From an uncultured Pelagibacteraceae bacterium (GTDB lineage: Bacteria; Pseudomonadota; Alphaproteobacteria; Pelagibacterales; Pelagibacteraceae): a stretch of DNA of 64,000 nucleotides. The stretch is from contig CACHRI010000001.1 of NCBI GenBank assembly GCA_902582155.1, forward strand, positions 137,307 to 201,306, read 5' to 3'. Positions 1 to 16,720 of the stretch are shown here, in pieces (positions within the stretch are counted from its first letter, which is position 1; each line of letters begins with the position of its first letter). The notes below the pieces were generated by a model. The model did not search any database and had not been told where the DNA came from. It saw nothing but the letters and a program-made list of their open reading frames with translations. The translations under genes were made by a program, and so were the position numbers.

Positions 1-971
1 CTTGTGTTCTTAACTTTGATAACGCTAAGGGTTTTTTAATTGGTAAGGAAAATAAAGGATTGAGTTCAATGTTTACAATGATGAATTTAGAGAGAATTAT
101 TGTTGGTATACAAGGATTAGGGATTGCAGAAACTGCCTATCAAAATTCACTTGCTTATACTAGAGAAAGAAAACAAGGTAAATCTAACGATAACAAAAAT
201 GGTGAAACAGATTTAATAATTAAACATGCTGATATCAGAAGAAGTTTAATGAACATGAAATCAATAATTGAAGGTCAAAGATCTCTGGCTTTCTGGTTAT
301 CCCAACAAGTTGATGTAAGCTTAAATCATTCAAATGAAAAGGTTAGAAAAGAAGCAGACGATATGGTCTCCTTAATGACACCTGTAGTAAAATCTTTTTT
401 TTCAGATATGGGTATGGAGATAACAAATGAAGCAATACAAATTTTTGGTGGTTATGGCTATACAAGAGATCAGGGTATTGAGCAATTATACAGAGATAAT
501 AGAATTACACCAATTTATGAGGGAACTAATTCTGTTCAAGCAATTGATTTAGTATTCAGAAAAGTACTTACTAATCGAACGTTGGAAAAATTTATATCCT
601 TGCTTCAAAATGAAATTAAGAATTATAACGATAATGTTGAATTAAAAAGACTATCCAACATTCTTAAAGAAAAGATAAAACTTCTATTAGACTTTTCAAA
701 ATGGTTAGACGATAAGTTAAAAAATCAAAAAGATGATGTTAGCGCGGCATGCAATGACTTTTTAAAAGTTCTTGGTTATGTTGCTTTAGGTTTTTCTTGG
801 CTTAAAATGACTAAAGTAAGCTTTGACAATTCAAGTAAAAATAAAAACTTTTATGAAGAAAAAATTAATACTGCAAAATACTTTTTTGATAAAATTCTAC
901 CTAGAATAGACAGTCATTATCATTCAGCAATAGCTGGTAGTGAAAGCTTGATGAAAGCTAAATTTAACTGA
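1..971 (+). CDS. dmdC: Acyl-CoA dehydrogenase, DmdC-like (5' truncated by window edge)
   Basis: The open frame is continuous from base 3 (first complete codon TGT), so the start lies left of the window and about 320 C-terminal residues remain. The segment contains the FAD/acyl-CoA core of long (about 600-residue) acyl-CoA dehydrogenases. The motif YEGTNSVQA (Glu codon at 519-521) carries the glutamate that acts as catalytic base in DmdC-type enzymes, and the extra C-terminal helical domain follows. In this context, two bases before a DmdB-like ligase and in the same operon as dmdA, it should oxidise 3-methylmercaptopropionyl-CoA to methylthioacryloyl-CoA. A general fatty acyl-CoA dehydrogenase is the alternative; the assignment rests on neighbours. 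Confidence 0.8.
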   Translation, partial: CVLNFDNAKGFLIGKENKGLSSMFTMMNLERIIVGIQGLGIAETAYQNSLAYTRERKQGKSNDNKNGETDLIIKHADIRRSLMNMKSIIEGQRSLAFWLSQQVDVSLNHSNEKVRKEADDMVSLMTPVVKSFFSDMGMEITNEAIQIFGGYGYTRDQGIEQLYRDNRITPIYEGTNSVQAIDLVFRKVLTNRTLEKFISLLQNEIKNYNDNVELKRLSNILKEKIKLLLDFSKWLDDKLKNQKDDVSAACNDFLKVLGYVALGFSWLKMTKVSFDNSSKNKNFYEEKINTAKYFFDKILPRIDSHYHSAIAGSESLMKAKFN

Positions 972-2615: not shown

Positions 2616-3065
2616 ATGTCAAAAATTTCAATTAATCTCAAATGGAGTCTTAATAGTGGAGAATTATCACCTGGTAAATATTCAAATAAACATCAAATAG
2701 AATTTAACGATGAGATCATTATAAATGGTGATGCAGCTCCAGACTGGAATGGAAACAAACAAAATAGTAATCCAGAACAAGCTCTTGCAGCAGCTTTAAG
2801 CAGTTGTCATATGATGACTTTTTTAGCTCTTGCTGCCAAAATGAATTGGCCAGTATCAGGATATACAGATAATGCAATAGCTACTTTAGGAAAAAATTCC
2901 AAAGGCAAAATGTCAGTAACCAATATTGAATTAAATCCAAAGATAGCATTTTCAAAAGAATTTTCTGTAGATAAAAACAAAATGAAAGAGGTACAAGAGA
3001 GAGCCCATCGATATTGTTTTATAGCTAACTCTTTGTCAGATGAAGTAAAGGTAAAGATTAATTAA
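2616..3065 (+). CDS. OsmC/Ohr-family thiol peroxidase-like protein
   Basis: 149 residues with both family-defining cysteines: C64 in SSCHMM and C134 in HRYCFIANS. Together these form the redox pair that reduces organic hydroperoxides in OsmC/Ohr proteins. No signal peptide, so cytoplasmic. It sits between the DmdB-like ligase (13-base gap) and the crotonase-like gene (3-base gap), inside the putative DMSP operon. A role in handling reactive sulfur or peroxide products made during methanethiol release is plausible but is inference; the sequence shows only the fold and its cysteines. Confidence 0.85.
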   Translation: MSKISINLKWSLNSGELSPGKYSNKHQIEFNDEIIINGDAAPDWNGNKQNSNPEQALAAALSSCHMMTFLALAAKMNWPVSGYTDNAIATLGKNSKGKMSVTNIELNPKIAFSKEFSVDKNKMKEVQERAHRYCFIANSLSDEVKVKIN

Positions 3066-3068
3066 CCC

Positions 3069-3878
3069 ATGAATTATAGAAAAAACAGTAAAATTTTAGA
3101 AACTTATTTAAATAAAAATGGTGTAATGCGTTTTAACTTAAATAGTCCAGAGAATTTAAATGCTCTTTCTGAAAATATGATGGATTTAATGCAAAATGCT
3201 TTGGACAAGGCAAGTCATAATAAAAATGTAAGAGTAATAATAATTTCAGGAGAGGGATCAACATTTTCATCTGGACATGACTTAAAAGAGTTGAAGGCTG
3301 CAAGAAAAGGTGCAGATAAAGGAAAAAAATATTTTTTAAAGATAATGAAAAAATGTTCAAAGATGATGCAAACAATAATTAAATGTCCAAAACCAATAAT
3401 TGCAGAAGTTGAAGGAACAGCTACAGCCGCTGGGTGTCAATTAGTTGCAAGTTGTGATTTAGCATATGCAAGCAGTTCAGCTAAATTTGCAACTCCTGGG
3501 GTAAATATAGGCTTATTTTGTTCTACACCCATGGTTGCAATTTCGAGAAACTTATCCAATAAACATTCTATGGAAATGCTTTTAACTGGAGAATTAATTT
3601 CATCAGATAAAGCTGCTAAAATTGGTTTAATCAACGATGTTATTGAAATAAATAAACTTAAAGATTTTACATTGGATAAAGCTCAAAAAATTTCAAAAAA
3701 ATCCTCAGTAACTTTAAAAATCGGTAAAGAAGCTTTTTATAAGCAATTAGATATGAAACTTTCCGATGCTTATGATTATGCTTCAAAGGTAATGGCTCAA
3801 AATATGCTTAAACTGGATGCCAAAGAGGGTATCGATGCTTTTATTGATAAAAGAGAGCCTAACTGGAAAGATAAATAA
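3069..3878 (+). CDS. Enoyl-CoA hydratase/isomerase family protein, ECHDC3 type, catalytic glutamates absent
   Basis: 269 residues with the crotonase fold: the first oxyanion-hole segment SSGHD (67-71) and the second around ATAAGCQ (119-124). In classical hydratases the residue after GGC is Glu and a second Glu lies 20 residues later. Here these positions are Q124 and G144 (FATPGVNIG), the pattern I associate with the ECHDC3 subfamily. Its operon position suggests a link to methylthioacryloyl-CoA hydration, normally done by DmdD or AcuH, but the missing acids argue against a standard hydratase mechanism. It could be an isomerase, a thioesterase-like member or a non-catalytic partner. Confidence 0.85.
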   Translation: MNYRKNSKILETYLNKNGVMRFNLNSPENLNALSENMMDLMQNALDKASHNKNVRVIIISGEGSTFSSGHDLKELKAARKGADKGKKYFLKIMKKCSKMMQTIIKCPKPIIAEVEGTATAAGCQLVASCDLAYASSSAKFATPGVNIGLFCSTPMVAISRNLSNKHSMEMLLTGELISSDKAAKIGLINDVIEINKLKDFTLDKAQKISKKSSVTLKIGKEAFYKQLDMKLSDAYDYASKVMAQNMLKLDAKEGIDAFIDKREPNWKDK

Positions 3879-3898: not shown

Positions 3899-4675
3899 TT
3901 GATTACAGAAATTAAAAAGAAAAAAATATTTTCAAATGATGTTGGGCATCCTTTTGACAAAAAAAAACCGACCATCATTTTATTGCATGGCAGTGGCCAG
4001 TCTCATGTTGTTTGGTCTTTAACTGATCAATTTTTAGCAGATAAAGGTTTTAATGTATTTACTTTAGATCTCCCAGGACACGGTAATTCCGAAGGACCTT
4101 GTTTAAAATCAATAGAAGAAATATCAAATTGGATAAATGATTTTGTTGATCATGTTGGTATTGAAAAATCTATATTGGTTGCTCATTCTCAAGGATGTTT
4201 AGAGGCCCTTGAATTTGCGAAAAACTTTCCAAAAAAAGTTGAAAAAATAGTTTTTATTGCAGGTTCCTATTCTATACCTGTTAACAAAAGTTTAATTGAT
4301 CTAGCTTTATCTGGTGATATGGAAGCTATAAATTTAATGATGAAATGGGGATATGGGTCCTCAAAACAATTTATTGGAGGCAATCCATTACAAAAAATAC
4401 TTAATTCTTCTAGAGAGGTAAGAGAGGTTCTGGCTGTTGATTTGATTGCTTGTAATAATTACAAAAATGGTGCTGCTGCGGTAAAAAGCATAACGTGCCC
4501 AACGTTTTTTATTTTTGGTGAAATTGATAAGATGATTAGATTAGAATCAGGAGAAAAATTTGCAAAAATGATTAACAAATCTAAAGTTCATATAATTAAA
4601 AATTGTGGTCATATGATAATTTTAGAAAATGCGTTTGAGATGAGAGAAAAGATTTTAGAATTTTTAAACAAATGA
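3899..4675 (+). CDS. Alpha/beta hydrolase in the DMSP operon
   Basis: 258 residues starting at a TTG, with no nearby ATG. An oxyanion-hole HGSG motif is at 30-33, the nucleophile elbow AHSQG has S97, and D210 (GEID) and H238 (NCGHMI) complete the catalytic triad, so it should be an active serine hydrolase. There is no signal peptide. The stop overlaps the dmdA start (ATGA), which implies translational coupling to DMSP demethylase. A CoA-thioester or ester substrate in this pathway is an attractive guess, but the family is too broad to name a reaction. Confidence 0.8.
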   Translation: MITEIKKKKIFSNDVGHPFDKKKPTIILLHGSGQSHVVWSLTDQFLADKGFNVFTLDLPGHGNSEGPCLKSIEEISNWINDFVDHVGIEKSILVAHSQGCLEALEFAKNFPKKVEKIVFIAGSYSIPVNKSLIDLALSGDMEAINLMMKWGYGSSKQFIGGNPLQKILNSSREVREVLAVDLIACNNYKNGAAAVKSITCPTFFIFGEIDKMIRLESGEKFAKMINKSKVHIIKNCGHMIILENAFEMREKILEFLNK

Positions 4676-5778
4676 AGAATTTTTACATAAGCAAATCACG
4701 AAGAGTAAGGTCTACACCTTTTACAAAAAAAATAGAAGAGCAGGGTGTCAAAAGTTATACTGTTTATAACCATATGTTATTGCCAACCTCTTTTTCCAAT
4801 GTTGATGAAGAATATTTACATTTAAAAAAAGATGTTCAACTTTGGGATGTTTCAGTGCAAAGAGAAATAGAAATTTCTGGTAAAGACGCACATCAACTAG
4901 TGCAATTAATGACATGTAGAGATCTTTCTAAATCAAAAGTAGGCAGTTGTTATTATGTGCCATTAATTGACTCAAACGGCGGCATGGTAAACGATCCTTT
5001 AATCTATAAGTTAGAAGATAATATTTGGAGAGTATGTATAGCTGACTCAGACGTTCTTTTGTATGCCAAAGGAATTGCTGCAGGTAAAAAACTAAATGTA
5101 AAAATATTTGAGGCAAATATTGATACCTTAGCTGTACAAGGTCCAAAGTCGTTTAAATTAATGGAGGATGTATTTGGAAAAGAAATTTCTAAATTAAAAT
5201 TTTTTAAATATGATTTTTTTAAATTTAAAAATAACAAGTTTCTGATTTCAAGATCAGGATTTTCAAAGCAAGGAGGTTATGAAATTCATGTAGAAAATGT
5301 AAAAGCTGGTTTGGAGTTATATGATTATTTCTTTGAGGAAGGAAAAAAATATAATATTAAACCAGGAGCACCTAATCATGCTGAAAGAATTGAAGGAGGC
5401 TTATTGTCATATGGAAACGATATGCTTATAAGTGATAATCCATTTGAATGTGGTTTTGAAAAACTAGTTCATCTAAAAGACGATGTAGAATTTATAGGGA
5501 AAGACAGTTTAAAAAAGATTTTGAAAAATGGTATTAAAAGAAAACTAATGGGTGTAAAGATTAATTCAGATTCATTAAATTTAACCAGTGTGGATTTGTT
5601 AAATAAAAAAAAACAAATAATAGGTAATTTGAGATCTGCAGCTTTTTCTCCAACTTTCAAGAAGATAGTTGGAATAGCCATGATTAATAAAGAATATTGT
5701 AAAAATAAAGAGATTTTTAATATCAATTTAAATGATAATTTAATTGATGGTGAAGTTTGTAAATTACCAATAATTTAA
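4672..5778 (+). CDS. dmdA: DMSP demethylase DmdA (GcvT-family, tetrahydrofolate dependent)
   Basis: 368 residues, matching the usual DmdA length. The N-terminus carries SRRVRSTPFT and YTVYNHMLLP, stretches I recognise as characteristic of DmdA rather than of glycine-cleavage GcvT. The GcvT-type folate site GGYEIHV follows in the middle. It transfers a methyl group from dimethylsulfoniopropionate to tetrahydrofolate, leaving 3-methylmercaptopropionate, which the DmdB- and DmdC-like enzymes upstream can process. It overlaps the preceding hydrolase by 4 bases and is followed after 1 base by a complex I accessory gene. Related aminomethyltransferase-like proteins are the alternative, but the context makes DmdA the best call. 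Confidence 0.9.
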   Translation: MKNFYISKSRRVRSTPFTKKIEEQGVKSYTVYNHMLLPTSFSNVDEEYLHLKKDVQLWDVSVQREIEISGKDAHQLVQLMTCRDLSKSKVGSCYYVPLIDSNGGMVNDPLIYKLEDNIWRVCIADSDVLLYAKGIAAGKKLNVKIFEANIDTLAVQGPKSFKLMEDVFGKEISKLKFFKYDFFKFKNNKFLISRSGFSKQGGYEIHVENVKAGLELYDYFFEEGKKYNIKPGAPNHAERIEGGLLSYGNDMLISDNPFECGFEKLVHLKDDVEFIGKDSLKKILKNGIKRKLMGVKINSDSLNLTSVDLLNKKKQIIGNLRSAAFSPTFKKIVGIAMINKEYCKNKEIFNINLNDNLIDGEVCKLPII

Positions 5779-9261: not shown

Positions 9262-10215
9262 ATGAATGAACTGACAACTGATATAAAAGCTTTACATGAG
9301 GAAACATTAAATAACCTTAAAACCTCTAAAGCTAATAATACTTTGAGAGCTTATAGATCTGATTTTAAAGATTTTGCGGGTTTCTGTGCTAAACATGGCT
9401 TCAAATCAATGCCATCGGATCCCAAAATCGTATCTTTATACTTAACTCACTTATCAAAAAAATCAAAAATTAGCACTTTAAGACGTAGATTAGTGTCGAT
9501 AGGTGTAGTTCATAAATTAAAAGGTCATTATTTAGATACAAAACATCCAGTAATTATTGAGAATTTAATGGGTATAAAACGATTAAAAGGGAGCAAACAA
9601 ATAGGTAAAAAACCTATATTAATCAATCATTTAAAACAAATAATTAATGTAATAAATGAACAAAATATTGAGGAAATTGTAAAATTAAGAAATAAAACAT
9701 TAATACTAATTGGATTTGGAGGTGGTTTTAGACGTACTGAGTTAATATCTATCGATTATGAAGATCTTGAATTCGTTGATGAGGGTGTAAAAATAGCAGT
9801 AAAAAGATCTAAAACAGATCAATTTGGAGAAGGTATGATAAAAGGTCTTCCCTACTTTTCAAAAGAAACTTATTGTCCGGTAACAAATCTTAAAAGTTGG
9901 TTAAGAATTTCAAAAATTAAAAATGGACCGATTTTTAGAAGATTTGCTAAGGGTTCTGCATTAACGCAAAATAGACTTACAGATCAATCAGTGGTTCTTA
10001 TAATTAAAGATTGTTTAAAATTAGCTGGTATAGCAAACACCAATTTCTCTGGTCATAGTTTAAGATCTGGTTTTGCTACTGTGGCCGCAGAAGCAGGAGC
10101 AGATGAGAGAAGCATAATGGCCATGACAGGACATAAAACAACACAAATGGTCAGAAGATATATTAGAGAAGCTAATATATTCAAAAACAATGCATTAAAT
10201 AAAGTTAAAATATGA
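9262..10215 (+). CDS. Tyrosine recombinase/integrase
   Basis: 317 residues with an N-terminal SAM-like core-binding domain (about 10-105) and a C-terminal catalytic domain. All active-site residues are visible: R157 in GGFRRTEL, K184 in RSKTD, H265 and R268 in GHSLRSG, H291 in MTGHKT, and nucleophile Y300 in RRYIREA. It should therefore be an active phage-type or Xer-like recombinase. Its 3' end overlaps an FkbM methyltransferase by 4 bases, at the border of a glycosyltransferase group. No att repeat pair or excision gene is visible, so it is either an island relic or a chromosomal recombinase. Confidence 0.9.
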   Translation: MNELTTDIKALHEETLNNLKTSKANNTLRAYRSDFKDFAGFCAKHGFKSMPSDPKIVSLYLTHLSKKSKISTLRRRLVSIGVVHKLKGHYLDTKHPVIIENLMGIKRLKGSKQIGKKPILINHLKQIINVINEQNIEEIVKLRNKTLILIGFGGGFRRTELISIDYEDLEFVDEGVKIAVKRSKTDQFGEGMIKGLPYFSKETYCPVTNLKSWLRISKIKNGPIFRRFAKGSALTQNRLTDQSVVLIIKDCLKLAGIANTNFSGHSLRSGFATVAAEAGADERSIMAMTGHKTTQMVRRYIREANIFKNNALNKVKI

Positions 10216-15242: not shown

Positions 15243-16682
15243 TTATTTTATGCCTAAGTGTGTATATTTAATGTTTAAATAATCTTTTATAGCCATAGAG
15301 CCGCCCTCTCGACCATAACCAGTTTGTTTTATCCCGCCAAATGGTGCCTCAGGTAAAGCCACAACTCCAGTATTTACAGCAACAGTTCCTGTTTCCATTA
15401 ATTCAGATGCTTTATGTGCTTTTTCTAAATCATTCGTATAAATATAACTAGCAAGTCCCAAATCATTATTATTAGCTCTTTTAACAACATCATCAAAATT
15501 TTTAAAAGATAAAATTGGTATTAATGGACCAAATGGCTCTGTTTTCATTATTGTAAAATCATCTTTAACATTGTCAAAAATTGTTGGCTCATAGTAAAAA
15601 CCTTTATTAAAACCTGAGGGTTTTTTTCCTCCACATAAAATTTTAGCACCTTCTTTTTTTGTAGTTTCAACAAGATCTTCAATTTCATCTAATCTTTTTT
15701 TTGTGGTTAAAGGGCCTAAAGAGACTCCTTCGTCCATTCCGTTCCCAATTTTTAATTTTTTAGTTTTTTCAACCATTAAATTAGTGAATTCCTTTTTTTT
15801 ATTTTCATGAATATAAAACCGACTTGGTGAAATACATACTTGACCGTTATTTCTAAACTTTGCAAACAAAGCTATATCAGTAACTTTTTCTAAATCTACA
15901 TCTTCAAAAACAATAAAAGGAGAGTGCCCACTTAATTCCATAGTAACTCTTTGAACTTTTTCAGCAGCTTTTTTTAATATTAATTTACCAACCCTTGTTG
16001 AGCCAGTTATAGAAACTTTCTTAATTATATCTGAAGATAACAATTGATCTGTAATAAAAGGCGGATCTCCTGATAAAAGATTTATTACTCCAGAAGGAAC
16101 TCCAGACTCATGGCAAATATTAACTAGTTCCATTACTGCACCAGGTGTAATAACATCAGGTTTAACTATAACAGAGCACCCTGCAGACAAGGCTGTTGAT
16201 ATTTTTCTCGATGCTAAAGTAATTGGAAAATTCCATGGAACAAGTGCAGCTACAACTCCAACTGGCTGATAGTAAACATGGATTCTAGTATCAGGTAATC
16301 TTCCTTGCAATGTTTCACCATAAATTCTTTTAGCTTCTTCTGAACTCCATTCAAAAATATCTGCAGCACCTAATACTTCACCTTCACTCTCTTTTAAAGG
16401 CTTACCCACTTCCAATGTAATCCATCTTGATAGTTCATTTTTTTTCTTTTTAATATTTTCAGAAATTTTTCTAATTATTTTTGATCTTTCCCAAGGAGAA
16501 ATGTTTTTCCATATTTCAAATCCTTTTTGTGCTGATTTAAGAGCTAATTCGATATCTTTCTTATTTGCTTTTGAGGCTTTTCCTATAACTTCTTCGCTTG
16601 CTGGATTTAATACTTCGTATGTTTCCCCACTAGAAGATTTAGACCACTTACCATCTATAAATTGACCGAATTTATCATACAT
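15243..16682 (-). CDS. NAD(P)-dependent aldehyde dehydrogenase
   Basis: 479 residues from the ATG at 16682; an upstream in-frame start at 16718 would add a hydrophobic 12-residue leader unlike the family. The cofactor segment VPWNFPIT, the glutamate base in MELSGHSP and the nucleophilic cysteine in NNGQVCISP are intact, and PFGGIKQTGYGREGG closes the C-terminus. Closest in type to succinate-semialdehyde or betaine/aminoaldehyde dehydrogenases, but substrate cannot be fixed. A tRNA-Glu gene lies 38 bases upstream on the same strand. Confidence 0.85.
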   Translation of the reverse strand: MYDKFGQFIDGKWSKSSSGETYEVLNPASEEVIGKASKANKKDIELALKSAQKGFEIWKNISPWERSKIIRKISENIKKKKNELSRWITLEVGKPLKESEGEVLGAADIFEWSSEEAKRIYGETLQGRLPDTRIHVYYQPVGVVAALVPWNFPITLASRKISTALSAGCSVIVKPDVITPGAVMELVNICHESGVPSGVINLLSGDPPFITDQLLSSDIIKKVSITGSTRVGKLILKKAAEKVQRVTMELSGHSPFIVFEDVDLEKVTDIALFAKFRNNGQVCISPSRFYIHENKKKEFTNLMVEKTKKLKIGNGMDEGVSLGPLTTKKRLDEIEDLVETTKKEGAKILCGGKKPSGFNKGFYYEPTIFDNVKDDFTIMKTEPFGPLIPILSFKNFDDVVKRANNNDLGLASYIYTNDLEKAHKASELMETGTVAVNTGVVALPEAPFGGIKQTGYGREGGSMAIKDYLNIKYTHLGIK

Positions 16683-16720
16683 AATGAACAAATATATATT
16701 GAAAAAAAAAATATTCAAGT

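Follow-up and report, generated by a model that had tools for sequence, protein, structure and literature searches.

An ECHDC3-type crotonase without the hydratase glutamates in a DMSP demethylation operon of SAR11 bacteria

What does a crotonase that lacks both catalytic glutamates do in an operon for DMSP demethylation? The question is raised by a gene at positions 3069-3878 (+) of the window, the whole stretch of 64,000 nucleotides that was analysed. The window starts at C1:137307 of a 977 kb genome that is 88% complete and whose close relatives by sequence are Pelagibacteraceae (SAR11). A sequence-only reading had put the gene at the place where a hydratase for methylthioacryloyl-CoA (MTA-CoA) would be wanted, and had found this context at odds with the active site. 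The analysis described here favours a different reading, to which we assign a probability of roughly 60%: the protein is an accessory crotonase of the ECHDC3/PRK08139 family that carries out a step other than hydration, and MTA-CoA is hydrated instead by a fusion protein, HAD-ECH, encoded just outside the window.

The dmd operon across the window edge

The window opens within the operon, the upstream part of which falls outside it. The first gene of the operon, HAD-ECH, is located at C1:134294-136513 and ends 0.8 kb before the window. It lies directly upstream of the gene for a DmdC-like acyl-CoA dehydrogenase (whole ORF C1:136517-138277, 586 aa), whose 3' end occupies window positions 1-971 (+). 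This is followed on the same strand (+) by an acyl-CoA ligase of the PRK08162 subfamily in the dmdB position (974-2602; NF006020 860.6 bits, cut-off 677), an OsmC-family protein (2616-3065; PF02566 62.7 bits), its partner gene for the ECHDC3-like crotonase (3069-3878), an alpha/beta hydrolase (3899-4675; PF00561 105.5 bits) and the DMSP demethylase DmdA (4672-5778; NF009133 498.3 bits, cut-off 410). With DmdA above its cut-off and accompanied by ligase, acyl-CoA dehydrogenase and hydrolase genes, the locus is a SAR11 dmdA operon. The ligase is 86-92% identical in Pelagibacter-type dmdA operons and goes by the name fadD in the operon of P. ubique, where the hydrolase corresponds to the mhpC position (PMC3160333). 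The order HAD-ECH, DmdC, ligase, OsmC, ECHDC3-like, hydrolase, DmdA is found in 36 of 48 loci, a set collected for similarity to the ECHDC3-like protein. Seven of the remaining 12 are cut at contig ends, four are otherwise arranged, and one (L023) has no OsmC ORF between the ligase and the ECHDC3-like gene, owing to decay or to a sequencing error.

Several further features of the locus deserve mention. The ligase reaches 343.8 bits against the NCBIfam 3-(methylthio)propionyl-CoA ligase model PRK07008 (cut-off 822), and as a member of PRK08162 that is far from this model it may be overlooked as a DmdB in model-based surveys. A gene for a phage-integrase-family recombinase (PF00589, 71.7 bits) follows dmdA at a distance of 3.5 kb (9262-10215), and HAD-ECH has a tRNA gene just in front of it (L051:6211-6284). 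As, in addition, only 20 of the 81 genomes in the genus have DmdA above its cut-off, the operon may be part of a mobile island. An Rfam scan of L051 gave nothing above the gathering score except a tRNA, so the idea of a riboswitch here, for SAM or another ligand, was rejected. An aldehyde dehydrogenase gene at 15243-16718 (-) (PF00171 530.9 bits) is unlinked to the operon, and its product might act on acetaldehyde or malonate semialdehyde.

A crotonase family with a distinctive active site

The ORF is intact, starts with ATG and encodes 269 aa. It matches the crotonase domain PF00378 with 179.5 bits and exceeds the cut-off of the curated NCBIfam model NF006008/PRK08139 (379.8 bits vs 313), which bears out its earlier assignment to the ECHDC3 subfamily. 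AlphaFold2 predicts a crotonase fold with high confidence (mean pLDDT 95.9). The best Foldseek matches of this predicted model are 3myb and human ECHDC3 (2vx2), both with a TM score of 0.91 at 41-44% identity and with VIA-align Z values of 36.7 and 36.4, respectively; the rmsd to 2vx2 is 1.4.

Alignments to 3myb, 2vx2 and 5xzd place Q124 and G144 at the positions of the two catalytic glutamates, just as had been read from the sequence, and the same placement is obtained in a MAFFT alignment with Glu-complete crotonases from other genomes. The protein hence departs from enoyl-CoA hydratases of the ECHS1/AcuH/DmdD type, which carry glutamates at both sites. The accompanying claim that the oxyanion-hole glycines are kept is true in part: Gly69 and Gly122 are retained, but the oxyanion-hole glycine position itself is occupied by Ala121 and the other oxyanion position by His70. 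Ala121 aligns with G110 of the E. coli methylmalonyl-CoA decarboxylase ScpB, which we take to be the oxyanion-hole glycine of that enzyme. Oxyanion holes are formed by backbone NH groups, so to judge from the sequence a hole containing Ala121 and His70 can still function.

Q124 and G144 are present without exception in the 133 family members aligned, which range from SAR11 to diverse Pseudomonadota and were chosen by family match, so that part of their likeness stems from selection. H70, C96, M100, F150, C151, T153, P154, R160 and K165 are fixed to the same extent (133/133), and these eleven residues are not common as a set to 24 other crotonases aligned. All are likewise kept in an alignment of 59 representatives, made up of the window protein and 58 others that share 37-72% identity with it, and the human sequence displays the same motifs in the PDB alignment. 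The two substitutions, being fixed throughout, are therefore a family signature; they were correctly observed and are ordinary for the family. A quick tree groups 66 family rows apart from nine other crotonases with an SH-aLRT support of 98. Local decay of the active site was ruled out, as Gln and Gly are fixed family-wide and the gene is under purifying selection with a median dN/dS of 0.088 (15 comparisons), next to 0.073 for DmdA (14 comparisons). The fixed H70, Q124, C96 and C151 suggest that the protein is still an enzyme. The sequence-only reading had also held that the subfamily has no firmly established reaction, and in the literature searched no activity was found for any ECHDC3-family member.

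The family is above its cut-off in 86 of 147 genomes of the order and in 117 of 397 Pseudomonadota-level genomes. In having osmC as its neighbour in a dmdA operon, the window copy differs from the other SAR11 copy and from many copies in Alphaproteobacteria, which adjoin the gene of a CoA-binding protein, often together with metY. Of 20 loci with the other SAR11 copy, 17 have a CoA-binding-domain gene (PF13380) no further than 6 kb away, as do 20 of 63 diverse loci; metY (O-acetylhomoserine sulfhydrylase) is nearby in 14 of the 63. These neighbour counts are not independent of each other because of shared gene order. In other SAR11 bacteria (L087-L102, L106) small genes that resemble those for APS kinases and nucleotidyltransferases stand before the unlinked copy, and the CoA-binding-domain gene stands after it. 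Many other Alphaproteobacteria have metY as well, with rplM/rpsI-like genes and a 4HBT thioesterase on the opposite side of the ECHDC3 copy.

The OsmC-ECHDC3 pair and the HAD-ECH fusion

The osmC and ECHDC3-like genes are an accessory pair that is optional in otherwise complete dmd operons. Among the 81 genomes of the genus the ECHDC3-like gene is above cut-off in 20, the same number as DmdA, and both are present in 18. The two further ECHDC3 genomes (G884, G929) have a DmdA fragment right behind the ECHDC3-like gene. Two DmdA genomes are without ECHDC3, G885 and G892; the sequence of G892 stops inside the hydrolase gene and is not usable for judging the absence. The operon of G885 (L238) comprises HAD-ECH, DmdC, ligase, hydrolase and DmdA with neither osmC nor ECHDC3, and both are also absent from the dmd operons L202 and L215 (Pelagibacter-type), L284 and L289. 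Where OsmC occurs, its cysteines 64 and 134 are both kept (46 of 46 aligned).

The pairing recurs beside dmdA and its homologues. G664 (L207) has the order DmdA-OsmC-ECHDC3 with a DmdA of 535.7 bits, above the cut-off, G229 (L165) has DmdA-like-OsmC-ECHDC3-ligase, and a gammaproteobacterial bin (L046) has DmdA-like-ECHDC3 without OsmC. The demethylases of L165 (382.3 bits) and L046 (367.4 bits) are below the DmdA cut-off of 410 and so may act on another methyl donor. L045 contains OsmC-ECHDC3-ligase, upstream of which homocysteine methyltransferase-, adenosylhomocysteinase- and S-adenosylmethionine synthetase-like genes were recognised by eye (L045:487-9490). In the quick tree L165 and L046 are apart from the SAR11 clade, and the linkage needs two changes; the AU test, however, does not reject a tree in which the 11 linked rows form a single clade (p 0.648), and the tree constrained in this way scored 10.66 log units higher. 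The ECHDC3-dmdA linkage may thus have arisen once or more often, and repeated independent gain of it was not upheld.

HAD-ECH, the gene that heads the operon, encodes a 740 aa protein of the FadN type with an N-terminal 3-hydroxyacyl-CoA dehydrogenase and a C-terminal enoyl-CoA hydratase. The Pfam match of the latter is weak, at 39.1 bits against a cut-off of 27. Its catalytic positions are occupied by Glu539 and Glu559, and both glutamates are present in every one of 62 homologues. This domain is one of only two crotonase domains found in the 88% complete genome, the other being the ECHDC3-like ORF. The perceived contradiction between context and active site is thus largely an artefact of the window edge, which cuts the operon and leaves this glutamate-complete gene outside. 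Nor is the claim that the ECHDC3-like gene occupies the place of a wanted hydratase supported by the otherwise complete operons that do without it (L238 of the same genus; L202, L215; L284).

HAD-ECH heads the dmd operon in four SAR11 genera, namely that of the window, g6 (L283), g468 (L284) and g469 (L289). It lies apart from the dmd operon in genomes of the Pelagibacter type (g3; L285, L286), with 70-72% identity in the seven such genomes tested. In G664 (L288) the genes that come after HAD-ECH are a dmdB-type ligase, metY and a hydrolase, and in G714 (L214) a set of metY, hydrolase and HAD-ECH is divergent from dmdA (462.7 bits). Across 108 Pelagibacteraceae genomes HAD-ECH and DmdA are both above cut-off in 73 and both missing in 22, with eight having DmdA only and five HAD-ECH only; the resulting odds ratio of 40 is confounded by kinship and, in the genus of the window, by operon linkage. 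The co-occurrence follows genus lines, and some of the 13 discordant genomes may be incomplete.

DmdD orthologs are absent from 'Ca. Pelagibacter ubique', for which 'alternate enzymes are hypothesized' to release methanethiol (PMC5069961). HAD-ECH is our candidate for this step in SAR11 bacteria, which lack DmdD, and is probably the missing hydratase, a reaction that we infer; naming it makes the methanethiol-releasing step of ocean sulfur cycling directly testable. No such claim for HAD-ECH was found in the literature searched, in which one paper mentions that other bacteria have genes for MMPA located together with dmdA (PMC6383258).

Possible reactions and comparison with known systems

It is proposed that the ligase and DmdC would make MTA-CoA and that the C-terminal ECH domain of HAD-ECH would hydrate it to yield methanethiol and malonate-semialdehyde-CoA. 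The ECHDC3-like protein would hold the carbonyl of a small acyl-CoA in an oxyanion hole made by the backbone NH groups of His70 and Ala121, and Gln124 and Cys151 would replace the water-activating glutamate pair. Its step could be enolate chemistry as in methylmalonyl-CoA decarboxylase, or a thioester or C-C cleavage, and would remove a side or end product, for instance malonate-semialdehyde-CoA, while OsmC as a thiol peroxidase would deal with peroxides or oxidised products. By analogy with mutants of other crotonases, an acyl-CoA reaction other than hydration is most likely for the ECHDC3-like protein; which step and substrate is a guess, and malonate-semialdehyde-CoA is our guess for the likeliest single substrate. 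One specific form of the proposal has an outside chance at best, the smallest of any considered here: Cys151 and His70 would cleave malonate-semialdehyde-CoA via an oxyanion-held acetyl-CoA enolate into acetyl-CoA and formate. If true, this would be a third exit from DMSP demethylation, which saves the thioester and feeds C1 oxidation in SAR11, and the first reaction for the ECHDC3 family including the human protein, that is, a retro-Claisen removal of the beta-carbonyl from short acyl-CoAs.

Other roles have to be weighed against this. With both hydratase glutamates gone in every family member aligned and the fold kept in the predicted model, the protein might be a non-catalytic pseudoenzyme that binds acyl-CoA and buffers or carries the reactive CoA esters of the pathway. 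We regard this as unlikely, given that several of the eleven fixed residues are polar (H70, C96, Q124, C151, R160, K165), seemingly beyond the needs of binding, and that a dN/dS of about 0.09 is similar to that of the enzyme DmdA (0.07). Somewhat more doubtful is a pathway thioesterase that takes over the second half of the DmdD reaction, hydrolysing malonate-semialdehyde-CoA while HAD-ECH hydrates. The fixed Cys151 and His70 speak for it, and DmdD both hydrates and hydrolyses, so that an enzyme limited to hydration would call for a second one to hydrolyse; yet hydrolysis by DmdD needs Glu141, which is missing here (PMC3660561). Moreover, operons lacking the ECHDC3-like gene exist (L238, L202, L215, L284, L289), and the neighbouring alpha/beta hydrolase, present in all of them, is the better hydrolase candidate.

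It seems very improbable that the protein does hydrate MTA-CoA by means of a non-canonical active site. NCBIfam does name the family 'enoyl-CoA hydratase', and the gene belongs to the dmdA operon, following directly after dmdA and osmC in L207 (G664). However, Gln and Gly at the glutamate positions together with a Glu-complete hydratase domain at the head of the same operon make hydration by the ECHDC3-like protein unlikely, some dmd operons lack its gene, and the family extends far beyond dmdA carriers (117/397 Pseudomonadota genomes, against DmdA above cut-off in 32/386 Alphaproteobacteria-level class genomes). Replacing the catalytic glutamates by alanine leaves DmdD and AcuH with little or no activity, which also agrees with the sequence-only view that activity of their type is not to be expected (PMC3660561, PMC5651017).

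What is new here is the variant of the operon: it contains a concrete candidate for the hydratase that SAR11 bacteria are missing, and it links DMSP demethylation to an OsmC-ECHDC3 pair that is optional. An optional pair in an otherwise fixed pathway provides a compact genetic context for finding the reaction of a family shared with human mitochondria, one whose structure has been solved but for which the literature searched gives no reaction.

FadN-type enzymes normally serve beta-oxidation, a point against the proposed role of HAD-ECH; the fusion described here is tied to dmd genes. It matches the FadN/FadB-type model NF052272 over its full length with 519 bits, below the cut-off of 999 of this exception-type model named for staphylococci. 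The dmdA operon of 'Ca. P. ubique' has the same four core genes (dmdA, mhpC, fadD, mmgC), published without HAD-ECH (PMC3160333); unlike it, the present operon begins with HAD-ECH and has osmC-ECHDC3 inserted between ligase and hydrolase. DmdD and AcuH, hydratases of MTA-CoA and acryloyl-CoA, share the crotonase fold and the dmd pathway context but depend on the glutamate pair that the ECHDC3-like protein lacks: E121A abolishes DmdD activity and E141A costs about 88,000-fold (PMC3660561), and E112 and E132 of AcuH are essential (PMC5651017). Ech-20 and Ech-30 of 3,3'-thiodipropionate catabolism were considered as possible functional relatives (PMC6370202). ScpB, like the ECHDC3-like protein, has no glutamate at the second hydratase position, and in the sequence alignment its His66 matches His70 in the oxyanion loop. 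It differs in having Tyr140 and Glu113 in place of Cys151 and Gln124, so that only the histidine of its Tyr140-His66 pair is present, and the ORF scores 137.1 bits against PRK11423 (ScpB), below the cut-off of 257. M. smegmatis 3myb and human ECHDC3 2vx2, members of NF006008, share with the window protein the fold, Gln and Gly at the glutamate positions and the fixed H70, C96 and C151.
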